From Actinokineospora auranticolor (lineage in GTDB: Bacteria; Actinomycetota; Actinomycetes; Mycobacteriales; Pseudonocardiaceae): a DNA stretch of 64,000 bases. Under the pieces are notes generated by a model. It worked only from the letters and a program-made list of their open reading frames with translations. It made no database searches and was not told the origin of the DNA. Within the stretch, counting starts at the first letter, position 1; the number at the start of each line of letters is the position of its first letter. Below, piece after piece: positions 50,406 to 63,731 of this stretch. The stretch spans positions 1-64,000 of the forward strand of contig NZ_PTIX01000018.1 of assembly GCF_002934265.1 (NCBI RefSeq), in the 5' to 3' direction. A program made the position numbers and the translations under genes.

Positions 50406-51140
50406 GTGGCGATCAGGATCGGCACGTCCGGCTGGGCCTACGAACCATGGCGCGGGAACTACTACCCGCGTGGCTTACCCGCGCGGGAGGAGCTGGGCTA
50501 CCTCGCGCGGCGGGTGGACACCATAGAGGTCAACAGCACCTTCTACGGGCCCCGCAAGGCATCGGACTACCTGCGGTGGCACGACACCGTGCCCGACGAC
50601 TTCGTCTTCGCCGTCAAAGCGCCGCGGTTGATCACCCACTCCAGCCGCCTGCGCGACGCGCGGGCCAGGGTCGACGAGTTCTTCGACTCCGGCCTCGATG
50701 ACCTCGGCGCCAAGCTCGGCCCCGTCCTCTGGCAGTTACCCGGGTCCCTGCACTACGACCCCGCGCTGCTGCGCGACTTCCTCCCCCTCCTCCCACCCGA
50801 CCGCCGCCACGCCGTCGAGGTGCGGCACGCCAGCTTCGCCGACGACCGGTTCATCGACCAGCTCGCCGAGCACCGCGTCGCGCTGGTCGTCGCCGACAGC
50901 CCCCGGGTGTGGCCGAGCCTGCTCGCCGACACGACCGACTTCGCCTACCTGCGGCTGCACGGCGACACCGAGCTGTACACGAGCGCGTACCCCGACGACG
51001 CCATCGACACCTGGGCCGCGCGAGCCGTGGAGTGGTCCGGCGGCGACCGGGACGTGTTCGTGTACCTCGACAACACGATGGTCGGGAACGCGCCGAAGGA
51101 CGCCGAACGCCTCGCCCGGCGGGTGCGCGCGCTCGTCTGA
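50406..51140 (+). CDS. DUF72 family TIM-barrel protein (first copy)
   Basis: 244 residues. The family signature IRIGTSGWAYEPWRGNYYP opens the protein; TIEVNSTFYGPR, DDFVFAVKAPR and AYLRLHGD follow. DUF72 proteins adopt a TIM barrel and have no established activity. GTG at 50406. A second, longer DUF72 gene lies at 54582-55448, beyond the NLR gene. Confidence 0.9.
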   Translation: MAIRIGTSGWAYEPWRGNYYPRGLPAREELGYLARRVDTIEVNSTFYGPRKASDYLRWHDTVPDDFVFAVKAPRLITHSSRLRDARARVDEFFDSGLDDLGAKLGPVLWQLPGSLHYDPALLRDFLPLLPPDRRHAVEVRHASFADDRFIDQLAEHRVALVVADSPRVWPSLLADTTDFAYLRLHGDTELYTSAYPDDAIDTWAARAVEWSGGDRDVFVYLDNTMVGNAPKDAERLARRVRALV

Positions 51141-51252: not shown

Positions 51253-54200
51253 GTGCCGGAGATCCACAACGAGGTCAGTGGGACGGTACACGGCGCCATC
51301 ATCCAGGCCCAGACCGTCGCGGTGACCACGTCGAACAGTCACCGACGGCCCGTGTGGATGGTGCCGGAGCCCGGCCGGGCACCGGTGGACCGGCCCGGGG
51401 TGGCCGACCGGTTGGCCGCGCTGGTGCGGTCCGGCGCCCCGGTCGTCGGCGTCGTCGGCGCGGGCGGGTTCGGCAAGACGACCCTGGCCGCGCAGGTCTG
51501 CCACCGGGTGCGCGACCGGTTCCCCGGCGGCGTGCTCTGGCTGACCCTCGGTGAGCACGTCCCCGACCCGCTGCTCGCCGACAAGGTCAACGACCTCACC
51601 GAGGTCCTGACCGGTCGCCGCCCCGCGCTCACCGACCCCCTGACGGCGGGCCACCGCCTCGGCGAGGTCCTCGCGGAGGCGCCGCCGACGCTGCTGGTCG
51701 TCGACGACCTCTGGGCCGCCAGCAGGCTGGCGCCGTTCCTGCGGGCCCGCGCCTGCCTGGTCACCACCCGCACACCCGGCGCGCTGCCGTCGGACGCCGA
51801 GGTGGTGATCGTCACCGCGATGAGCGCGGTGGAGAGCCGGACGCTGCTCACCCGCGGCCTGCCGGACATGGCCGCCACCGACCGCCTGCTGCGCCTGACC
51901 GGGCGCTGGCCGCTGCTGCTCGCCCTGGTCAACAGCACGATCCGCCGGTCGGTCGCGGACGGCTCGACGGCCGCCGCCGCTGCCGACTCGGTCGCCGAGC
52001 AGCTGCTGGAGGACGGCCCGGACTGCCTCGACCTCGACAGCGCCGACCGCCGCGACCAGGCCGTGCGCGCGACCGTCGAGGCCAGCACCGACCGGCTCGG
52101 CGACGCCGACCGCGACCGGTTCCGCGAACTGGTCGTGTTCCCGGCCGACACCGACCTGCCGGGCGCGGTCCTGCACGTCCTCTGGCGCGGCACCGCCGGG
52201 TCGGACGAATCGCGGACCCGCGCGCTGTGCCGCCGGTTGGTGGACCTGTCGCTGCTGAGCCGGGTCGGCGACGCGTTCCGGCTGCACGACGTCCTGCTCG
52301 CGTACCTGCGCAACGCCGTGGGCGCGCGCAGGCTCACCGAACTCAACGGCCACCTCGTCGACGGGCTCGTCCCGGCCGACTGGGCCGAAGCCGCCCCGTA
52401 CGCGCGAAGGCACCTCGCCGCGCACGCCGCCGCCGCGCACCGCGTCGACGAGCTGCTGACCGACCCCGGCTACCTCCTCGCCGCGGGCCAACCCGGCCTC
52501 CTGCCCCACCTCGACGCGGCCACCGGCGCCGACGCGGTCCGCGCGGCGGCGGTGTACCGGCGCGCGGCGCACCACCTGCGCGACCACGACGTCGAGCAGC
52601 GCCCCGCCTACCTCGAGTTCGCCGCCCGCCGGGCCGGTGCGGACGACCTGGCCGCGCGGACGGCCCGGCACGCCACCGGGTCGGCTTGGCGGTGCTCGTG
52701 GACGGCCTGGGAGCCCAGCGTCGAGCACAAGGTCCTGATCCGCCACCAGCGCCCGGTCGAGGACGTGGTCGTCGCGCCGCTGCGGGGCGGGGTGACCTGG
52801 GTGATCAGCCGCGACGACAGCGGGGTCGTGCGCGTGGTCGACCTGGACACCAACGAGACCGTGCAGCCGCCGTGGCTGGACCGCGACGAACGGGTCGGCG
52901 CGATCGCGTGCGTACCGCGCCTGGGCGCCGGGCCGCTCGTGCTGCTGGACGCGGGGTCGGGTCTGCGGGTCCGCGACTGCGCGACCGGCGACCCGGTGCC
53001 CTGGGACGTCGACGAGCCCGACGCGGGCGTCGCCCAGATCGTGTCCACCCGCGCTCGCGCGGCGATCGTCACCTACACCGACGGCACCGCTCGCACGTGG
53101 GACGCCGACACCGGCGCGCGGATCGGCCCCACGGCCGCGCTGCGGCTCGACGCGGGTGCCGACTGGCGCGTGGCCGCCGCGACCCTGAACGACGACGTGC
53201 CCGCGGTGGCCGTCATGGGGTCGCGGCACAGCGTCATCCGGGTCATGGACCTGGCGGCGGGGACACCGGTCCGGCAGGGGTTCGACGCGGTCATGGCGGC
53301 CCCGGAAGCCCTGGTGTGCACGCGGCGGACGGTGCTGGCCCTGTCGCGGAACCAGGTACTGCGGTGGAGCCTGAGCCCCGGGGAGGTGATCGGGGCGCGC
53401 GCCAACCCCACCGGGCGCCGCCCGACCGCGCTGATCACCGGTGACCTCGCCGACGGCCGGGAGGTGGTGCTCAGCGGTGACGAGGCGGGGCAGATCTGCG
53501 TGTGGGACGCCGACACCGGCGCGCCGCTGGCCGAACCGCTCGCCGCGCACGGCGACGAGGTCGGCGCGCTGTCGTGCGCCCGGCTCGCCGACGGCCGGGT
53601 CGTGGTCGCGTCGGGGAGCGCGGACAACACCGTCCGGCTGTGGGACACCCGTGACGTGCTCGCGCCGTCCACCCGGGCCGTGGCGGGCCCGGTCGGGGTG
53701 ACGGGTGTCGTGGCCGCGGCCGGGTGGCGGGTGAGCGGCCACGCCGACGGCCGGGTCCGCTTCTGGTCGGGCGCGGAGACCGAGGTCGCGGGGCCCGCCC
53801 CGGTCGTCGAGGTGACCAGGGCGGGGGAGTTCGCGGTGTCCCTGCACGAGGACGGGTCGCTGCTGGTGTTCGACGGCGACGGCCGGGTCGGCGCGCCCGC
53901 GGCGCGCCCGTGGGCCGGTCGCGCGACGTCGGTGACCGGCACCCTCCTGGACGGGCGGCCCGTGGTCGTGATCACCGGTACCGCCAACCTGCTGGAGGCG
54001 CGCGCCCTGCCGGACTGGGAACCCCTGTGGCGGCTGCGGCCCCCGGGCAGGCTGCGCGTCGCGCCGGTCGACGGCGCGGAGCTGCTGGCCGCCACCACGT
54101 CGGCGGGCTACCTGCAGGTGCGCGACCTGGCGACCGGCCGGGTGGTCGGCGATCAGATCGCCATCCAGTGCCACAACCCCACGACGGCCCTGGCCACCCT

Positions 54201-54564
54201 CGTCCACCCCGACGGCGGCGTCCTCGCGGTCAGCGGCAACGCGCGCGGCCAGGTGGTGGCCTGGCGCCTCGGCGACCACAACGCGCCGGTCTGGATGTCC
54301 GGCGACGCGGGCGACCCCGTCCGCGCGGTCGTGTGCGCCGTCCTACCCGGCGGTACCCCGGTCGCCGTGACCGCGGGCACCGCCCTCCGCGCCTGGCGGC
54401 TGGACGAGCCCGTGGCCGCGCCGTGGACACCGACCTGCGAGATCGACCTCGACGCCCCCATCACCGCCCTGGCCGCGCCCACCCCCGGCGAACTCCTCGT
54501 CGGCACCCGCCACGGCCTGGCCCGCCTCCACCTCCGCGACCCGGCAGGCGAACCGGCGGTGTGA
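51253..54564 (+). CDS. NLR-type STAND receptor: NB-ARC ATPase with beta-propeller
   Basis: 1103 residues. Residues 4-23 (IHNEVSGTVHGAIIQAQTVA) resemble the short amyloid-signalling motifs reported at NLR N-termini in actinobacteria. The NB-ARC part has P-loop GAGGFGKTT (69-77), Walker B LLVVDDLW (147-154), sensor TTR (171-173) and GRWPLLLAL (217-225), then a winged helix with FRLHDVLLAYLR near 355. From about 470 to the end are WD40-like blades (ICVWDADTGAPL, VRLWDTRD). Such proteins act as ligand-triggered oligomerising sensors, often in defence. ATACTT at 51242-51247 ends 5 nt before the GTG, suggesting a leaderless mRNA. Confidence 0.85.
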   Translation: MPEIHNEVSGTVHGAIIQAQTVAVTTSNSHRRPVWMVPEPGRAPVDRPGVADRLAALVRSGAPVVGVVGAGGFGKTTLAAQVCHRVRDRFPGGVLWLTLGEHVPDPLLADKVNDLTEVLTGRRPALTDPLTAGHRLGEVLAEAPPTLLVVDDLWAASRLAPFLRARACLVTTRTPGALPSDAEVVIVTAMSAVESRTLLTRGLPDMAATDRLLRLTGRWPLLLALVNSTIRRSVADGSTAAAAADSVAEQLLEDGPDCLDLDSADRRDQAVRATVEASTDRLGDADRDRFRELVVFPADTDLPGAVLHVLWRGTAGSDESRTRALCRRLVDLSLLSRVGDAFRLHDVLLAYLRNAVGARRLTELNGHLVDGLVPADWAEAAPYARRHLAAHAAAAHRVDELLTDPGYLLAAGQPGLLPHLDAATGADAVRAAAVYRRAAHHLRDHDVEQRPAYLEFAARRAGADDLAARTARHATGSAWRCSWTAWEPSVEHKVLIRHQRPVEDVVVAPLRGGVTWVISRDDSGVVRVVDLDTNETVQPPWLDRDERVGAIACVPRLGAGPLVLLDAGSGLRVRDCATGDPVPWDVDEPDAGVAQIVSTRARAAIVTYTDGTARTWDADTGARIGPTAALRLDAGADWRVAAATLNDDVPAVAVMGSRHSVIRVMDLAAGTPVRQGFDAVMAAPEALVCTRRTVLALSRNQVLRWSLSPGEVIGARANPTGRRPTALITGDLADGREVVLSGDEAGQICVWDADTGAPLAEPLAAHGDEVGALSCARLADGRVVVASGSADNTVRLWDTRDVLAPSTRAVAGPVGVTGVVAAAGWRVSGHADGRVRFWSGAETEVAGPAPVVEVTRAGEFAVSLHEDGSLLVFDGDGRVGAPAARPWAGRATSVTGTLLDGRPVVVITGTANLLEARALPDWEPLWRLRPPGRLRVAPVDGAELLAATTSAGYLQVRDLATGRVVGDQIAIQCHNPTTALATLVHPDGGVLAVSGNARGQVVAWRLGDHNAPVWMSGDAGDPVRAVVCAVLPGGTPVAVTAGTALRAWRLDEPVAAPWTPTCEIDLDAPITALAAPTPGELLVGTRHGLARLHLRDPAGEPAV

Positions 54565-54581
54565 CGGTCCACCATGGCCGG

Positions 54582-55448
54582 GTGACCGGTGACGTACGAG
54601 TCGGGACGTCGGGCTGGGTCTACCCGCCCTGGCGCGGTGAGTTCTACCCGAAGGGGTTGGCGCGGAAGCGGGAGTTGGAGTACCTGTCCCGCCGGGTCAA
54701 CTCGGTCGAGATCAACGGCTCGTTCTACGCCCTCCAGCGCCCAACCAGCTTCCAGCGCTGGCACGACGACACCCCGGACGACTTCGTCTTCGCCGTCAAG
54801 GCGCCCCGCTTCGTCACCCACATGAAGCGCCTGCGCGACATCGACTCGCCCCTGGCCAACTTCTTCGCCTCGGGCCTCCTCGCACTCGGGCCGAAGCTGG
54901 GCCCGGTCCTGTGGCAGCTGCCGGAGAACTTCACGTACGAACCCCGGGTCCTCGCCGACTTCTTCGACCGGCTACCCCGGACCACCGCGGCCGCGGCGGC
55001 GCTCGCGGGTGACCACGACGAGCGCCTCGAAGGTCGCGCGTGGACGAAAACCGACGCGGATCGGCCGGTGCGGCACGCGATGGAGGTCCGCAACCCGGCC
55101 TTCGCGGTCCCGGAGTTCGTGGACCTGCTGCGGGAGAAGGAGGTCGCACTGGTCGTCGCGGACACCGCGGGGAAGTGGCCCCACCTCGACGACGTCACGG
55201 CCGACTTCGTCTACCTCCGCCTGCACGGCGACAAGGAGCTCTACGCGAGCGGCTACGCACCCGACGCGCTCGACGCCTGGGCGACGAAGATCCGCACCTG
55301 GCGGTCGGGGAAGAACGTGCGTTCGGAGCACGTCGTCGGCAAACCCGCTCCCTACCGCAAGACCGGCCGCGACGTTTACGCCTACTTCGACAACGACATG
55401 AAGGTCAAGGCGCCCGGCGACGCCATCGGGCTGATGGGTCGCCTCTAG
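54582..55448 (+). CDS. DUF72 family TIM-barrel protein (second copy)
   Basis: 288 residues, paralogous to 50406-51140 but longer. VRVGTSGWVYPPWRGEFYPK, SVEINGSFYALQRP and DDFVFAVKAPRFVTH match the first copy. It has extra segments around residues 135-160 and near KTGRDVYAYFDNDMKVKAP. GTG at 54582 is used; an in-frame GTG at 54561 would overlap the NLR stop by 4 bp and add seven residues. Function unknown. Confidence 0.88.
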   Translation: MTGDVRVGTSGWVYPPWRGEFYPKGLARKRELEYLSRRVNSVEINGSFYALQRPTSFQRWHDDTPDDFVFAVKAPRFVTHMKRLRDIDSPLANFFASGLLALGPKLGPVLWQLPENFTYEPRVLADFFDRLPRTTAAAAALAGDHDERLEGRAWTKTDADRPVRHAMEVRNPAFAVPEFVDLLREKEVALVVADTAGKWPHLDDVTADFVYLRLHGDKELYASGYAPDALDAWATKIRTWRSGKNVRSEHVVGKPAPYRKTGRDVYAYFDNDMKVKAPGDAIGLMGRL

Positions 55449-55493: not shown

Positions 55494-57602
55494 TCACGCC
55501 GTCGGGACCGAGGCGACCCCGGAGGCCAGGAACGGCTTGCCGTTGACCCGTTCCGAGATGCCCTCGCGGTCCAGGTACGGGGTCACGCCGCCCAGCCAGA
55601 ACGGCCAGCCCGCGCCGAGGATCATGCACAGGTCGATGTCCTGGGCCTCCGCCACGACGCCTTCGTCCAACATGATCCGGATCTCCTGGGCCACGGCCGC
55701 CAGCACCCGTTCGCGGACCGCGTCCGCGGTCAGCACCGAGGGGCCGAACTCCCACAGGGCCGCGACTTCCGGGTCCACCGACTGGTTCCCGGCCGCGTCC
55801 CACGTCCACACCGCCGACTTCCCGGCTGCCACGAACCGCCGCATGTTGTCGCTGACGGTGAAGCGGTCCGGGTAGGCGTTGTGCATGGTCGTCGCGACGT
55901 GCAGCGCGACCGGTGGGCCCACCAGTTGCAGCAGCACCAACGGGCTCATCGGCAGGCCCAGCGGGTCGGTCGCGTGGTCGGCCACCTCGAACGGAGTGCC
56001 CTCGTCGATCGCCTGGACGACCTCGCCCATGAACCGGGTCAGCAGTCGGTTGACGACGAACGCGGGCGCGTCCTTCACCAGCACACAGGACTTCCGCAGC
56101 GCCTTGCCCACCGCGAAGGCGGTCGCCAGGGTCGGGTCGTCGGTCTTCTCCGCGCGCACGATCTCCAGCAGCGGCATCACCGCGACCGGGTTGAAGAAGT
56201 GGAAGCCCACGACCCGCTCCGGGTGGCGCAGGCCCGCAGCCATCGCGGTGATCGACAGGGACGAGGTGTTCGTCGCCAGCACGCACTCCGCGCTGACGTG
56301 CGCCTCCACCTCCTCGAACACCTTCTGCTTGACGACCAGTTCCTCGAACACCGCCTCGATCACGAAGTCCGCGTCCGCGAACGCCGCCTTGTCCAGCGAC
56401 CCGGTCACCAGCGCCTTGAGCCGGTTGACGCCGTCCGCCGACAGGCGCCCCTTGGCGGCCAGCTTGTCGATCTCGTCGTGCACGTACCGCACGCCCTTGT
56501 CGACGCGTTCCTGGTCGACGTCGGTCAGCACCACCGGCACCTTCAGCTGGCGCGCGAACAGCAGCGCCATCTGGCTCGCCATCAGGCCCGCGCCGACGAT
56601 GCCGACCTTGTTCACCGGCCGCGCCAGCGACTTGTCCGGCGCCCCGGCGGGCCGCTTGGCGCGCTTCTGCACCAGGTTGAACGAGTACAGCCCGGCCCGC
56701 AGCTCGTCGGACATCAGCACGTCCGCGAGCGCCTCGGTCTCCGCCGCGTACCCGGCGTCGAGGTCTCCGGAACGGGCCAGTTCCAGCAATTCCACCGCCT
56801 TGAGCGCCCCCGGCGACGCGCCCTTCGTCCGCCCCTCGACGATCCCCCGCGCCCGCGCCACCGCCGCGTCCCACCCGGCACCCCGGTCGATCTCGGGCCG
56901 GTTCACCGCGGTCTTGCCGTTGATGACGTCCGCGGCCCACTGCGACGACCGCTCGAGGAAGTCCGCCGAGCCCAGCAGCACGTCCGTGATACCCAGGTCC
57001 GCGGCCTGCTTCGGCTTCAGCATCCGGTTCTGGCTCAGCGCGTTCTCGATGATCACCGTCACCGCCGCGTCCGGCCCGATCAGGTTCGGCAGCAGCTGCG
57101 TGCCGCCCCAGCCCGGGAACAGCCCCAGGAACACCTCGGGGAACGCGATGGCGGCGGTGTTGTCCGACAGCGTCCGGTAGTGGCACGACAGCGCCAGCTC
57201 CAGACCGCCGCCCATCACCGCCCCGTTGACGAAGGCGAAGGTCGGCACCCGGGACTCGGTGAGCCGCCGGAACACCTCGTGCCCACTGCGCGCGATGTCC
57301 AAAGCGGACTCACGCGTCGCCACCTGCTCCACACCGGACAGGTCGGCGCCGACGGCGAACACGAACGGCTTGCCGGTCACCGCGATCGCGCTCGGGTCGG
57401 CGGCGAACGCCTCGTCCAGCGCGGCGTTGAGGCTCACCAGGCTCTGCGGACCGAACGTCGACGGGCGCGTGTGGTCGTGCCCGTTGTCGATGGTGATCAG
57501 CGCGACCGGCTTCGGCAGCCCCGGCTGGCGCACCAGCCGCGTGGTCGCCTTCGTGACGACCTCGTCCGGGAACGCCTCCGCGGCCTGTTCCTGCGTCAGC
57601 AT
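55494..57602 (-). CDS. fadB: Fatty-acid oxidation complex alpha subunit (enoyl-CoA hydratase / 3-hydroxyacyl-CoA dehydrogenase)
   Basis: Bifunctional beta-oxidation enzyme of 702 residues. The N-terminal crotonase domain has the oxyanion-hole segment AFVNGAVMGGGLELALSCHY. The NAD-binding domain starts VGIVGAGLMASQMA (about 337), and the dehydrogenase dyad lies in VGFHFFNPVAVMPLLEIV. ATG at 57602 overlaps the thiolase stop by one base, so the two form an operon whose products assemble as the trifunctional-type complex. Confidence 0.94.
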   Translation of the reverse strand: MLTQEQAAEAFPDEVVTKATTRLVRQPGLPKPVALITIDNGHDHTRPSTFGPQSLVSLNAALDEAFAADPSAIAVTGKPFVFAVGADLSGVEQVATRESALDIARSGHEVFRRLTESRVPTFAFVNGAVMGGGLELALSCHYRTLSDNTAAIAFPEVFLGLFPGWGGTQLLPNLIGPDAAVTVIIENALSQNRMLKPKQAADLGITDVLLGSADFLERSSQWAADVINGKTAVNRPEIDRGAGWDAAVARARGIVEGRTKGASPGALKAVELLELARSGDLDAGYAAETEALADVLMSDELRAGLYSFNLVQKRAKRPAGAPDKSLARPVNKVGIVGAGLMASQMALLFARQLKVPVVLTDVDQERVDKGVRYVHDEIDKLAAKGRLSADGVNRLKALVTGSLDKAAFADADFVIEAVFEELVVKQKVFEEVEAHVSAECVLATNTSSLSITAMAAGLRHPERVVGFHFFNPVAVMPLLEIVRAEKTDDPTLATAFAVGKALRKSCVLVKDAPAFVVNRLLTRFMGEVVQAIDEGTPFEVADHATDPLGLPMSPLVLLQLVGPPVALHVATTMHNAYPDRFTVSDNMRRFVAAGKSAVWTWDAAGNQSVDPEVAALWEFGPSVLTADAVRERVLAAVAQEIRIMLDEGVVAEAQDIDLCMILGAGWPFWLGGVTPYLDREGISERVNGKPFLASGVASVPTA

Positions 57603-58828
57603 CAGTTCCCGCTCCCGTCCCAGATGGGGTTCTCCCAGATCACGGTGCCACCCATGCCGATCCCGACGCACATGGTGGTCAGGCCGTAGCGCACGTCCGG
57701 GCGCTCGGCGAACTGGCGCGACAGCTGGGTCATCAGCCGCACGCCGGACGCGGCCAGCGGGTGGCCGCAGGCGATCGCCCCGCCCCACTGGTTCACCCGC
57801 GGATCGTCGTCGTCGAGCCCGAAGTGGTCGAGGAACGCCAGCACCTGCACCGCGAACGCCTCGTTGATCTCGAACAGCCCGATGTCCGAAATGGACAGCC
57901 CGGCCCGGGAGAGCGCCTTCTCCGTGGCGGGCACCGGTCCCACACCCATGACCTCCGGCTCCACACCGGCGAACGAGTAGCCCACGAGCCGCATCCCGAC
58001 CGGCAGGCCCAGCTCGCGCGCGGTCCGCTCCTCGGCCAGCACGCACGCCGTCGCGCCGTCGTTGAGCCCGGCCGCGTTGCCCGCGGTGACCCGGCCGTGC
58101 GGGCGGAACGGCGTCTTCAGCCCCGCCAGCGCCTCGACCGTGGTCCCCGGCCGCGGCGGCTCGTCCTCGGTGGCCAGGCCCCAGCCCAGCTCGGCGGACC
58201 GGGTCGCCACCGGCACCAGCTCGGGCCCGATCTTGCCCGCCTTCACCGCGTCGGCGAACTTCTCCTGGCTGCGCGCGGCGTAGGCGTCGCAGCGCTGCTT
58301 GGTCAGGTGCGGGAAGCGGTCGTGCACGTTCTCCGCGGTCTGACCCATGATCAGGGCGGTCGGGTCGACGAGCTTGTCCGCGATGATCCGCGGGTTCGGG
58401 TCGACGCCCTCGCCCATCGGGTGGCGGCCCATGTGCTCGACGCCGCCCGCGATCACCACGTCGTAGGCGCCGAACGCGATTCCGCTCGCGGTGGTGGTCA
58501 CGGCGGTCATCGCGCCCGCGCACATCCGGTCGACGGCGAACCCGGGCACCGACTTGGGCAGCCCGGCCAGCAGTGCGGCGGTGCGGCCGATGGTCAGGCC
58601 CTGGTCGCCGATCTGCGTGGTCGCGGCGACGGCCACCTCGTCGACCCGCTCCGGCGGCAGGCCGGGGTGCCGGCGCAGCAGCTCGCGGATGACCTTCACG
58701 ACCAGGTCGTCCGCCCGGGTCTCGGCGTAGACGCCCTTGGGTCCCGCCTTCCCGAACGGTGTCCGCGCCCCGTCGACGAACACGACGTCGCGGACGACTC
58801 GGGAGGCGGACGCGGCGGATGGGGCCAC
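57602..58828 (-). CDS. fadA: Acetyl-CoA C-acyltransferase (thiolase)
   Basis: Thiolytic cleavage of 3-ketoacyl-CoA, 408 residues. The nucleophilic cysteine lies in VDRMCAGAMTAV; the other catalytic motifs are NEAFAVQ, GGAIACGHPLAASGVR and MCVGIGMGG. GAGGAG lies 7 nt before the GTG at 58828. First gene of the fadA-fadB operon, with two palindromes just upstream that probably bind a TetR-type regulator. Confidence 0.94.
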   Translation of the reverse strand: MAPSAASASRVVRDVVFVDGARTPFGKAGPKGVYAETRADDLVVKVIRELLRRHPGLPPERVDEVAVAATTQIGDQGLTIGRTAALLAGLPKSVPGFAVDRMCAGAMTAVTTTASGIAFGAYDVVIAGGVEHMGRHPMGEGVDPNPRIIADKLVDPTALIMGQTAENVHDRFPHLTKQRCDAYAARSQEKFADAVKAGKIGPELVPVATRSAELGWGLATEDEPPRPGTTVEALAGLKTPFRPHGRVTAGNAAGLNDGATACVLAEERTARELGLPVGMRLVGYSFAGVEPEVMGVGPVPATEKALSRAGLSISDIGLFEINEAFAVQVLAFLDHFGLDDDDPRVNQWGGAIACGHPLAASGVRLMTQLSRQFAERPDVRYGLTTMCVGIGMGGTVIWENPIWDGSGN

Positions 58829-58856
58829 GGTGGTGCTCCTCGGTGTCGGATCCTGG

Positions 58857-58908
58857 GCTACCGTCCGGTAACCCCTGCCCACTCTAGCCCTTGTTACCGC
58901 CGGGTAAC
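58857..58908. promoter_or_regulatory. Paired palindromic operators upstream of fadA
   Basis: GTTACC-GCCG-GGTAAC (58893-58908) is a perfect 6+4+6 palindrome. GCTACC-GTCC-GGTAAC (58857-58872) matches it with one arm mismatch. The two start 36 bp apart, in the gap before fadA, and look like tandem sites for one dimeric repressor. Confidence 0.6.
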
Positions 58909-58922
58909 CACTGCGGCGCGCC

Positions 58923-60266
58923 TCACCCGGCGACCACCGGCAGATCCGCCGCGAACCGCCGCCCGGCCACGTGCTCCAGGTGCGGCACCAGCCGCACGCC
59001 GTGCTCGCCCGCCTCGGTCCGCGCCACCACGGCCTCGGCGGGCTCGCTGCCGAGGTTGGCGACCAGGTGCGGCAGGTCGGCGGGCATGTAGACCATCTGC
59101 CCCGCGATGGCGTCGATCATGTGCTCGACGTTGTGCCCGTAGTAGGTCCGAATGCGACCCCGGGTCACGTACAGCGCCGACTCGTGGTCCTGAAGGCGCA
59201 CCGGACCCCGGCCGCGCGCGGGCACGGAGACCACGTACATCCCCAGCCCCCGGGCGCCGACGGTGTCCCGGCAGATCCCCTGCTCGCCCGGCGTGATCAC
59301 CCGGACCGTCGGCGCGTCCGGGGTGTTGCGGGCGCGCGGGATGGTCGCGGCGGCGAGCACGGGGTCGCGCTTGGTCGTGCCGGTCCGGTAGCAGTCCCAG
59401 TCCGCCAGCCGCGTCGCCAGGTCCCCGCAGTACGCCTGCTCGACCTCCAGGTGCGTGCCCTGGCCCGCCGACCCGTACGACCAGCCCAGCGCGCGCACGG
59501 TGTCGGTGTCCAGGCACGGCGCGGCGTCGAGGAAGTCCGCGACCCGCTGCGGCAGCGGCGGCATCAGGTCGTCCGGCACCCCGACGGCGTGCAGGCAGGC
59601 CCGCTCGGCGTGCCCGGTGTCCGCGCGGAAGGTGACGCCGATGCAGAAGTCCGCGGGCACCACCTTGCGCATGGCCTTGAGCGTCGTGACGCTCGGCGTC
59701 GGCAGCGCGATCCCGCCGAGCACCTGGGCGCAGCGCTGCGCCGTGAGCGGACCCCGGGCCCGGAAGTACGCGGTGATGGTGTCGTCGCGGTGGTCGACGG
59801 CGGCGAACCGTGCGTGCGTCAGGCCTGCGGCGACCAGCCCGGCCAGGTTCGCCCGCACCGCGGCGGGCGCGGCGTCGAACACCGCCTCGGCCGGTCGCGT
59901 CCCGCCGAAGTAGACCCACGTCCTGGCCAGGCCGCCGATGCCGTCGAAATCGCACGACTGCACCGCGTCCGGGTCGAACTGCGCGTCCCACACCTGCACC
60001 AGCCGGGTCAGCGCCGTCTCGACGATGAGCCCGCGGCGCAGCGCGGTGTCCACCGTGTCGGCGTGCAGGCGGGCCAGGAAGCGGTAGCCCAGGTGGTCGC
60101 CGGGGCGGCTGGTGGTCTTCCACAGCACCGCCCCCGTGTGGAAGTGGTGCTCGAACGCGCACAGGACCCGGCGCGCCGTGTCCTCGTCCCACGGGGCCTC
60201 CACGACCGCCGCCAAGTGGGCGCCGTCGGTGAGGAAGCGGGCGGCGTCGAAGTTGTTGGTGGTCAT
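58923..60266 (-). CDS. CloQ/NovQ-like aromatic prenyltransferase fused to a cupin domain
   Basis: 447 residues. Residues 1 to about 300 resemble ABBA-fold aromatic prenyltransferases such as CloQ, which attaches dimethylallyl to 4-hydroxyphenylpyruvate: GAVLWKTTSRPGDHLGYRF (45-63), QSCDFDGIGGLARTWVYFGG (103-122) and LGWSYGSAGQGTHLEVEQAY. Residues 315-447 form a cupin with LQDHESALYVTRGRIRTYYG and GQMVYMPADLPHLVAN (P395, H400, N404). Stand-alone ABBA enzymes are 300-330 residues, so the cupin is an added domain. ATG at 60266. No recognised pathway genes flank it. Confidence 0.8.
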   Translation of the reverse strand: MTTNNFDAARFLTDGAHLAAVVEAPWDEDTARRVLCAFEHHFHTGAVLWKTTSRPGDHLGYRFLARLHADTVDTALRRGLIVETALTRLVQVWDAQFDPDAVQSCDFDGIGGLARTWVYFGGTRPAEAVFDAAPAAVRANLAGLVAAGLTHARFAAVDHRDDTITAYFRARGPLTAQRCAQVLGGIALPTPSVTTLKAMRKVVPADFCIGVTFRADTGHAERACLHAVGVPDDLMPPLPQRVADFLDAAPCLDTDTVRALGWSYGSAGQGTHLEVEQAYCGDLATRLADWDCYRTGTTKRDPVLAAATIPRARNTPDAPTVRVITPGEQGICRDTVGARGLGMYVVSVPARGRGPVRLQDHESALYVTRGRIRTYYGHNVEHMIDAIAGQMVYMPADLPHLVANLGSEPAEAVVARTEAGEHGVRLVPHLEHVAGRRFAADLPVVAG

Positions 60267-60362
60267 GCTCGGCTCCAGGGTTCTGCAACTGGGGCCGGTG
60301 GGGTCGCGGACGCCAAGAGCACCGTAACCGCGCCCGCCGATGATCGGTACGCGAAGACGCGA

Positions 60363-61037
60363 TCAACCCCGGTCGGTGAGCCCGACGAACTCCGCCATCC
60401 GCCCGACCGCGTAGCCGAAGAACTCGTCGGCCGGGTCCGCGCTGCCCACGAGCTGGCCGAACAGCTCGAAGCTGATCATCCCGAACAGCTGGGTCCAGGC
60501 CAGCAGGATCCGCGCCAGGGCGCCGGGGGGCAGGTCGTCCGGCAGCACCGCCCGGACGGCCTCGGACTGCGCGTGCACGACCGGGGGCAGTTCGCTGTCG
60601 GGCACCCCGGCCTCGGCCGCGATGCCGATCAGCACCAGCGCGACCCGGGCCGCGGGCGCGACGGTGTCCTGCGGCGCCCGGTAGCCGGGCACGGGGGAGC
60701 CGTAGATCAGCTCGTACTCGTACCGGTTCGCCAGCGCCCAGCCGCGCACCGCCGCGCACGCCGAGTGCCAGCGGGCCAGCGGCGTCGGGCCGTCGTCGGC
60801 CTGCTCCGCCGCGGCGCCGAGCGCGTTGTACGCGTCGATGATCAGCGCGGTGAGCAGGTCGTCGCGGCTGGGGTAGTACCGGTAGAGCGCCGAGGACACC
60901 ATGCCGAGGCTGCGGGCCACCGCGCGCAGCGACAGCCTGCCCGCGCCGCCGTCCGCCAGCTGCCTGCGGGCCTCGTCCTTGATCTCCCGAGTCAGTTCCG
61001 TGCGCGCCCGGTCCCGCGCGGTTCGCCCAGCACTCAT
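60363..61037 (-). CDS. TetR-family transcriptional regulator
   Basis: 224 residues. The N-terminal helix-turn-helix is RLSLRAVARSLGMVSSALYR followed by YYPSRDDLL; the C-terminal ligand domain (about 80-224) includes ALANRYEYELIYGSPVPGY, common in TetR proteins beside deazaflavin-dependent oxidoreductases. ATG at 61037. Divergent from the oxidoreductase, with two similar operators between, so it probably represses both genes. Confidence 0.88.
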   Translation of the reverse strand: MSAGRTARDRARTELTREIKDEARRQLADGGAGRLSLRAVARSLGMVSSALYRYYPSRDDLLTALIIDAYNALGAAAEQADDGPTPLARWHSACAAVRGWALANRYEYELIYGSPVPGYRAPQDTVAPAARVALVLIGIAAEAGVPDSELPPVVHAQSEAVRAVLPDDLPPGALARILLAWTQLFGMISFELFGQLVGSADPADEFFGYAVGRMAEFVGLTDRG

Positions 61038-61078
61038 GGTCACGAGTCTGGCACAGGTCGGAGCGGTGCACAAAGATG

Positions 61079-61145
61079 AGAGCAGTGCTCTTGACAAGGA
61101 ACGCCGATCCGCGTTGACTGGGATCATCCGAGAGCACCGCTCTCG
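61079..61145 (+). promoter_or_regulatory. Promoter flanked by two TetR-type operators
   Basis: AGAGCA-G-TGCTCT (61079-61091) and CGAGAGC-ACC-GCTCTCG (61129-61145) share AGAGCAnnGCTCT-like halves. Between them TTGACA (61091-61096) and TTGACT (61114-61119) are 17 bp apart. The second operator covers the expected transcription start of the oxidoreductase gene. Confidence 0.6.
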
Positions 61146-61165
61146 CTTTCGAAGGAGTCCCCGCC

Positions 61166-61618
61166 ATGAGCACCCAGGCCCACTACAAGCGCCCCGGCCG
61201 CGTCGAGGTCAACACCTTCCACCGCCTCGTGCGGTTCCTCGTCCGGCACGGCGTCAGCCTGTGGGGCGCGCGCGTGCTCTCGGTGCGGGGGCGCAAGAGC
61301 GGAGAGCTGCGGTCCAACCCGGTCAACCTGCTGACCCTCGACGGCGCCGAGTACCTGGTCGCGCCGCGCGGGCACACCGAGTGGGTGCGCAACCTCCGCG
61401 TCGCGGGCGAGGGCGAGCTGCGCGTCGGCAAGCGCGTGGACCGCTTCACGGCCGTGGAACTCCCGGACGCCGACAAGGTCCCCGTCCTGCGCGCCTACCT
61501 CAAGCGCTGGGGCTGGGAGGTCGGCATGTTCTTCGACGGCCTCGACGCCAAGTCGCCCGACGAGGAGCTGCTGGCCGCCGCCGCCAAGTTCCCGGTGTTC
61601 CGCGTGGCGCTGACCTGA
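61166..61618 (+). CDS. Deazaflavin (F420)-dependent nitroreductase family protein
   Basis: 150 residues of the split beta-barrel DDN-like family, which uses reduced coenzyme F420. Typical segments are VLSVRGRKSGELRSNPVNLL and YLVAPRGHTEWVRNLRV (F420-binding) and the charged C-terminal helices. AAGGAG precedes the ATG at 61166. Substrate unknown; relatives reduce quinones, nitro compounds or aflatoxins. Controlled by the divergent TetR gene by inference. Confidence 0.88.
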   Translation: MSTQAHYKRPGRVEVNTFHRLVRFLVRHGVSLWGARVLSVRGRKSGELRSNPVNLLTLDGAEYLVAPRGHTEWVRNLRVAGEGELRVGKRVDRFTAVELPDADKVPVLRAYLKRWGWEVGMFFDGLDAKSPDEELLAAAAKFPVFRVALT

Positions 61619-63014: not shown

Positions 63015-63731
63015 CTACCGGATGACGCCCGCCCGCATGGCCAGCGCCACCATCTGTGCCCGGTCGCCGGTGCCCAACTTCCGGCCGATCCGCGAGAGGT
63101 GCGACTTCACCGTCAGCGCCGAGAGGTTCAGCGCCTCGCCGATCTCCTTGTTGGACTGCCCGTCCGCGACCAGTTGCAGCACCTCGACCTCGCGCGCCGA
63201 GAGCTCGCGCGGGGTGTTGTCGGTGCCGGGGACCCGCGTGCCCGTGGCGAGGACCGGCGCGACGCTCGGGTCGGCGTAGACGCCACCCTCGAGCACCCGG
63301 CGGACCCCGTCGGTCACGACCACCGGCGATGCGGACTTCAGCAGGTAGGCCTGGGCCCCTGCCTGGAAGGCCGATCGAACGGCGTACGGGTCGTCGGACG
63401 AAGCCAGTACGACGATGCGCGGCCAGTTGTGGCTGCGCAGCTCCGTGACCAGCTCGATCCCGCTACCGTCCGGCAACCCGAGGTCCAGGATCGCGAGGTC
63501 GCACGGGCCGGTGGCCTGTGCTCGCGCCCTTGCCTCGGCCACCGTGGCGGCCTCGTGCACTGTGCCCGCGCCCATCTGCGTGAGCCGAGCGGCTATCGCC
63601 TCCCTCAACAGTGGGTGGTCGTCGACCACCAGCACTGAGAACAGCTCCTCCCGCGGGTGCGGGACCATGTTCGCCGGCAAGGCGCCGGCTGGCGTGGTTC
63701 GAACGGCCTGACCTAAGCCGACGGCAGCCAC
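63015..63731 (-). CDS. NarL/LuxR-family response regulator
   Basis: 238 residues. About 30 extra N-terminal residues precede the receiver domain (FSVLVVDDHPLLREAI; acceptor in LAILDLGLPDG; lysine in AYLLKSASP). The C-terminal LuxR helix-turn-helix is LSAREVEVLQLVADGQSNKE and ALTVKSHLSRIGRKL. No sensor kinase is adjacent. GGGAGG lies 7 nt before the GTG at 63731. Confidence 0.92.
   Translation of the reverse strand: MAAVGLGQAVRTTPAGALPANMVPHPREELFSVLVVDDHPLLREAIAARLTQMGAGTVHEAATVAEARARAQATGPCDLAILDLGLPDGSGIELVTELRSHNWPRIVVLASSDDPYAVRSAFQAGAQAYLLKSASPVVVTDGVRRVLEGGVYADPSVAPVLATGTRVPGTDNTPRELSAREVEVLQLVADGQSNKEIGEALNLSALTVKSHLSRIGRKLGTGDRAQMVALAMRAGVIR

Follow-up and report, generated by a model that had tools for sequence, protein, structure and literature searches.

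A prenyltransferase-cupin fusion gene in two distant actinobacterial genomes

Introduction

To our knowledge, ABBA prenyltransferases have been described as single-domain enzymes. Among them are CloQ and NovQ, 4-hydroxyphenylpyruvate dimethylallyltransferases that belong to aminocoumarin clusters; the enzyme that acts after them, CloR or NovR, is not known to be a cupin. A locus in Actinokineospora auranticolor raises the question of whether the two folds can be combined in a single polypeptide. An earlier note on this DNA, made from the sequence alone, proposed that one reading frame joins a prenyltransferase of the CloQ/NovQ kind to a cupin. Is this fusion real, does it occur elsewhere, and what might the second domain do? 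"The window" below is the whole stretch of 64,000 nucleotides that was analyzed. Features discussed in the text are collected in Table 1.

A literature search by titles and the opening parts of abstracts found no ABBA-cupin fusion among the papers listed, most subscription papers lying outside its reach. A broader search for ABBA enzymes that are fused or have two functions gave, among the papers listed, only unrelated titles. In the accessible part of a study of aromatic prenyltransferase evolution (PMC3227686), two-domain proteins are mentioned only among membrane-bound relatives, and sequences longer than 600 residues were excluded.

Table 1. Features of the fusion gene and its surroundings, in window coordinates.
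Feature	Position	Strand	Basis or remark
Prenyltransferase-cupin fusion gene	58923..60266	-	single ORF from an ATG, 447 aa, without a stop inside
ABBA prenyltransferase domain (PTase_Orf2, residues 6-290)	59397..60251	-	Pfam and CloQ 2xlq match
Cupin_2 domain (residues 345-414)	59025..59234	-	Pfam and alignment with 9 relatives
Codon E276, equivalent of catalytic Glu281 of CloQ	59439..59441	-	residue mapping; role from the available parts of the papers
Codon E274, aligned with Lys279 in the donor diphosphate site of CloQ	59445..59447	-	residue mapping; role from the available part of PMC5371340
Codons R357-L358-Q359, where relatives have the HxH metal ligands of motif 1	59190..59198	-	alignment
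Codon H400, kept His of cupin motif 2	59067..59069	-	alignment
fadA-like thiolase	57602..58828	-	Thiolase_N, Thiolase_C; GTG start inferred
Two palindromes (58857-58872, 58893-58908) with TAGAGT between	58857..58908	-	upstream of fadA, downstream of the fusion gene
TetR-family regulator	60363..61037	-	start inferred (ORF reaches 61127); relatives in 15/15 other same-genus genomes
F420H(2)-type quinone reductase / deazaflavin-dependent oxidoreductase	61166..61618	+	domain matches

Two Domains in One Reading Frame

When the protein is searched for domains, its two parts match different Pfam families. Residues 6-290 match PTase_Orf2 (PF11468) with an E-value of 9.2e-65 and a score of 219.3 bits (cut-off 22), covering positions 1-286 of the 287 in the profile. 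Residues 345-414 match Cupin_2 (PF07883) with an E-value of 4.9e-7; the score of 29.8 bits exceeds the cut-off of 27.2 by a modest margin. The best relative of known structure is CloQ (2xlq), which matches residues 5-306 with an E-value of 1.7e-67, so that the N-terminal half is homologous to the solved CloQ barrel over its full length. Both of the proposed domains are thus present, and the motifs that had been quoted for the protein, QSCDFDGIGG included, all lie in the reading frame. NCBIfam gave only beta-lactamase matches at chance level. When the whole protein was modelled from its single sequence, the mean pLDDT was 34.8, which is too low for use.

A fusion of this kind can also be produced by an assembly or sequencing error that joins two genes. 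Evidence for a real fusion can be provided by finding it independently in another genome. Such a homologue exists in genome G1493, which belongs to another family than the window genome (family f5, genus g53). There the fusion occupies L082:1471-2976, encodes 501 residues and begins with GTG according to the ORF listing. It has the same two domains, in the same order and the same frame, and is 55% identical to the window protein across both (58% in the prenyltransferase part, 51% over 111 residues of the cupin). NCBIfam gave no match to this second protein. The coding signal of the window gene is also continuous: GC at third codon positions (GC3) runs from 0.98 over the prenyltransferase through 1.00 over the linker to 0.96 over the cupin, similar to host genes (mean 0.95 over the 48 genes called in the window). 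Nothing was found in favor of an artefact, and because an independent genome from another family carries the same fusion, that explanation is refuted, its remaining probability being negligible. The prenyltransferase-cupin fusion is real, is rare and is found in two distant actinobacterial genomes.

Distribution of the Fusion

Profile searches with PF11468 covered 390 genomes at family level (14 matched), 392 genomes of genus g53 (34 matched) and 394 genomes at class level (9 matched). G000 and G550 were each counted twice across these searches, leaving 55 distinct genomes with a match, and 14 control genomes had no PF11468 match in any of the three. The places found were tested for a fused cupin with blastp and tblastn: all 20 at family level, all 10 at class level and 52 of the 67 in genus g53. 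The other 15 places in that genus have open frames of at most 331 residues and are therefore too short for a fusion. Counting fused homologues in this way gave one besides the window gene, that of G1493, and hence two fusions among the 55 genomes. In the window genome itself, only the fusion gene matches PF11468. Of the 16 genomes of the genus, no other was found to carry the fusion, and the sole other PF11468 gene among them (L008, in G006) encodes a separate protein with 33% identity.

Wider searches were weaker than the family profile searches, as few candidates were scored in each genome. No further full-length match appeared among the proteins of 396 genomes from the phylum (first 4 candidates per genome), nor, when searched by alignment, in 199 genomes related to G1493 (first 7) or in 179 genomes of its genus, largely the same as the genus g53 set (first 12). 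Two scans of genome contigs and one of viral contigs found no relative; these scans need near-exact short peptides, so the result means no more than that close relatives are uncommon in those collections. Phages gave no match to the fusion protein. No plasmid record covered 80% of the fusion query, and the matches listed (the best 15 of 31 records and the best 10 of 41) involve the cupin part only.

The two domains may also occur as neighboring genes. In the prenyltransferase loci tested, no cupin close to that of the window was found near a single-domain prenyltransferase; weak cupin matches, with E-values from 2e-4 to 0.04, occur near those at L078, L184, L092, L070 and L093.

Two other loci came to light in these searches. 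In G051, the match to one PTase_Orf2 gene falls into two pieces that overlap but differ in frame (L013 and L019, G051:C1:385229-385995), and the gene looks broken, either in the genome or in its assembly. In G1425, two different PTase_Orf2 genes stand in tandem (L085 and L089, G1425:C105:72496-74315).

The Prenyltransferase Domain

Fifteen residues of CloQ (54, 66, 68, 120, 122, 160, 161, 174, 176, 215, 233, 279, 281, 295 and 297) were mapped onto the fusion proteins. Their roles are taken from the available parts of PMC5371340 and PMC3485228. Columns 217 and 228, the latter probably mislabelled by one position, are outside this set. The G1493 protein agrees with CloQ at all 15 places and the window protein at 11. 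This agreement is not peculiar to fusions, since the single-domain proteins L081 and L054 agree at 15 and 12.

The window protein keeps the catalytic glutamate (E276, CloQ Glu281), both arginines that bind 4-hydroxyphenylpyruvate (R153 and R169, CloQ Arg160 and Arg176) and the equivalents of Cys215 and Cys297. It departs from CloQ at Lys279 (E274), Tyr233 (H226), Lys120 (R115) and Phe68 (L64). The first of these changes concerns the donor site, where CloQ has four basic residues, Lys54, Arg66, Lys120 and Lys279. G1493 is basic at all four, while the window protein is basic at three (K50, R62, R115) and has glutamate at the last. Glutamate at this place is not unique to the window protein, since the single-domain protein L003 has it as well.

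A tree of 33 prenyltransferase rows, rooted at its midpoint, places the domains of the two fusions in one clade (support 100/98), on the same side as CloQ. The window branch is the longer (0.61 vs 0.22); the tree program flagged this row for an amino-acid make-up unlike the rest, and the window domain may be a few residues short in the tree. At the 52 columns that are invariant in seven single-domain relatives, the window protein departs at 10 and G1493 at 4. Taken together, the long branch and the altered invariant columns suggest that the window prenyltransferase may be losing or changing its function. A two-sequence count between the fusions gives dN 0.36 and dS 0.64 for the prenyltransferase part and dN 0.36 and dS 0.90 for the cupin; dN/dS is below 1 in both, but dS is unreliable with third positions as strongly biased as they are at this GC.

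A different change is seen in a small clade of prenyltransferases (L008, L007 and L015), which have serine and aspartate at the places of CloQ Arg160, Tyr174 and Arg176. Because of these residues, the clade probably has another acceptor.

The Cupin Domain

The window cupin was aligned with that of G1493 and with eight stand-alone relatives picked from 12 distinct ones. These stand-alone proteins are small Cupin_2 proteins with a YEGKQ-like motif, encoded as separate genes on actinobacterial chromosomes and on rhizobial and Pantoea plasmids; the window cupin is 33-37% identical to the eight aligned.

The earlier note had read PADLPHLVAN as a conserved motif of the metal region. The sequence is present and corresponds to cupin motif 2, but both histidines of motif 1 are absent from the window copy. 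The G1493 fusion and all 12 stand-alone relatives have H-x-H in motif 1, whereas the window protein has R357 and Q359. It is also one residue short just after this motif, and it lacks the 11-column stretch that carries the YEGKQ-like motif. Glu362 and His400 are retained, so that two of the four usual ligands (H-x-H...E of motif 1 and H of motif 2) are replaced; a standard metal site is thus not what the window protein has. In contrast, the G1493 cupin keeps the complete set. At 57 columns conserved among the eight stand-alone cupins, the window cupin departs at 29, counting the missing stretch, and G1493 at 15.

A profile of the cupin matches, with modest scores, the solved structures of oxalate decarboxylase (E 1.6e-8), quercetin dioxygenase and 3-hydroxyanthranilate dioxygenase. 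In those structures the residues of motifs 1 and 2 are metal ligands. The earlier suggestion that the cupin oxidizes or decarboxylates the prenylated product must be divided between the two proteins. For the window copy, with R357, Q359 and the lost stretch, such a reaction by the usual metal route is unlikely, and the idea of a metal enzyme is weakened. Binding of the product, which the earlier note had proposed as well, may still be its role. For the fusion family it is still alive, because the G1493 cupin has the full set of predicted ligands.

The loci of stand-alone cupins share few neighbors and therefore give no lead to cupin function. Among seven chromosomal loci, only L147 and L104 have neighbors in common, including a run of genes that reads as respiratory-complex-like from the sequences. 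Stand-alone relatives also occur on plant-associated plasmids: on a Pantoea plasmid (L144 1-6399) about 5.5 kb separate one of them from a gene for an isopentenyl transferase, and on an Ri plasmid (L141 1-6417) the distance to virD4 is about 5.4 kb. On a linear plasmid of Streptomyces (L140 5917-10053), whose gene table is incomplete, a relative is followed by genes for an aldehyde dehydrogenase and a UbiD-family decarboxylase.

Genomic Context

The gene order in the window is RNase D-type exonuclease, F420-type reductase, tetR, fusion gene, fadA and fadB. The fusion gene thus lies, as had been described, between fad genes on one side and a divergent tetR/F420-type pair on the other, and it is outside any recognizable cluster, aminocoumarin or other biosynthetic. 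DUF72 genes are also among its neighbors. None of these neighbors points to a substrate. Farther away, an NB-ARC and WD40-like protein (51253-54564) is encoded between two DUF72 genes (50406-51140 and 54561-55448).

All 15 other genomes of the genus have a relative of the TetR protein (58-78% identity), and in all of them tetR is directly followed by fadA; the fusion gene intervenes only in the window. The distance between the two genes is about 76-229 bases, an approximate range measured from an extrapolated TetR end to a fixed fadA codon. Upstream of fadA lie two palindromes of consensus GTTACC-N4-GGTARC around TAGAGT or a close form. This arrangement is kept under a strict pattern in 13 of the 15 genomes, and the other two show variant forms. 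In the window the two sites are each matched on both strands, with one more match at 63462, while shuffling predicts 0.16 matches. Possibly they are a TetR-type operator for fadAB. No such palindrome, with up to one mismatch allowed, lies between tetR and the F420-type reductase.

Since the window keeps the palindromes between the fusion gene and fadA, the fusion gene is an insertion upstream of a fadA control region that is apparently intact. Its adjacency to the fad genes therefore says little about its job. The F420-type reductase is likewise uninformative, because it lies beside tetR in the 15 genomes without the fusion. A scan of 58800-61200 for sigma-70-type promoters, the only type it covers, found none.

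The neighborhood in G1493 is a different one, and none of the 20 proteins scanned around its fusion gene points to a common pathway. A TetR-type regulator lies within about 3 kb of both fusions, with C-terminal regions of different families (TetR_C_33 in the window, TetR_C_1 in G1493), and a gene for a luciferase-like monooxygenase lies about 1 kb upstream of the G1493 fusion. Some luciferase-like monooxygenases use F420. Neither the regulator nor the monooxygenase is counted as a neighbor common to the two loci.

Origin and Possible Function

The reading we prefer, with a probability of roughly 0.5, is that the window gene encodes a phenol prenyltransferase gained by horizontal transfer, to which a cupin, probably free of metal, is tethered. 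A soluble phenol C-prenyltransferase of the CloQ clade would have been fused once, in an ancestor common to the G1493 gene, to a small cupin from the stand-alone family, and the fusion would then have reached the window genome as a single gene. By analogy with CloQ, DMAPP and a para-hydroxyphenyl acid, 4-hydroxyphenylpyruvate for example, would be the substrates of the N-terminal barrel; Glu276 would act as the base, and Arg153 and Arg169 would hold the carboxylate. In the relative EpzP, a C-terminal 3-10 helix closes the aromatic site, according to the available part of the source. Because the C-terminal side seals the site there, a cupin attached at this acceptor end would be well placed to cap the aromatic site or to hold the product. 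In G1493, the cupin with its complete ligand set could modify the prenylated product; in the window, since motif 1 is lost, it is most likely a metal-free binding, lid or assembly domain. The window protein looks like a diverged copy that is probably still a prenyltransferase, although E274, which adds negative charge to the predicted diphosphate pocket, and the departures at H226, R115 and L64 stand against this reading.

Other explanations give the cupin, or the gene as a whole, a different role. Both proteins might be true two-step enzymes, in which the barrel prenylates 4-hydroxyphenylpyruvate and a metal cupin oxidizes or decarboxylates the product, one protein doing what CloQ and CloR do in two; a cupin that converted a prenylated keto acid would have its counterpart in function in CloR/NovR. 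The CloQ residues and cupin ligands of G1493 agree with this, as do the metal enzymes among the distant solved relatives of the cupin. A precedent for a cupin downstream of a prenyltransferase is the fungal AtyE, which oxidizes and epoxidizes siccayne, derived from a prenylated phenol, according to the available part of PMC12356543. The window cupin would then have to bind its metal through E362, H400 and a nearby histidine such as H361, H378 or H382, having lost both motif-1 histidines and the YEGKQ-like stretch, and no pathway gene is recognized beside either fusion. We regard a two-step enzyme in both genomes as unlikely. A narrower version is tentative but slightly easier to hold: the fusion family, best shown by G1493, would be the two-step enzyme, and the window gene a side branch whose second step has been lost or replaced. 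Since it combines the look of a 4-hydroxyphenylpyruvate prenyltransferase with a full set of cupin ligands, the G1493 protein would in any case be the better candidate for two steps.

The changes in the window copy can also be read as signs of decay or drift in a gene acquired recently, its frame still open while both active sites are being lost. Four altered residues of 15, the lost HxH, the longer branch and the occurrence in a single genome of the 16 from this genus would fit this. Against it are 447 codons without a stop or frameshift, GC3 like that of host genes, the retained glutamate and arginines, and dN/dS below 1 in both parts, with the reservation about dS given above; decay thus seems rather improbable. 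Finally, the cupin might be a sensor or oligomerization domain that regulates the prenyltransferase through binding of a small molecule. Metal-free cupins can act as ligand-binding or dimer domains, and the window cupin has lost motif 1, but this would leave the full ligands of the G1493 copy and the stand-alone relatives unexplained, and we give it only an outside chance. Our preference stays with the acquired prenyltransferase carrying a probably metal-free cupin.

Implications

ABBA prenyltransferases are sought-after biocatalysts. Should the cupin act on the prenylated product, a two-step route to prenylated phenolic acids would be encoded by a single gene. The route would be free of any cluster and, if the two-step reading is true, could lead to prenylated benzoic or phenylacetic acids. 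The window and G1493 proteins also form a natural comparison, in which the same fusion occurs once with the usual metal ligands of the cupin and once without them.
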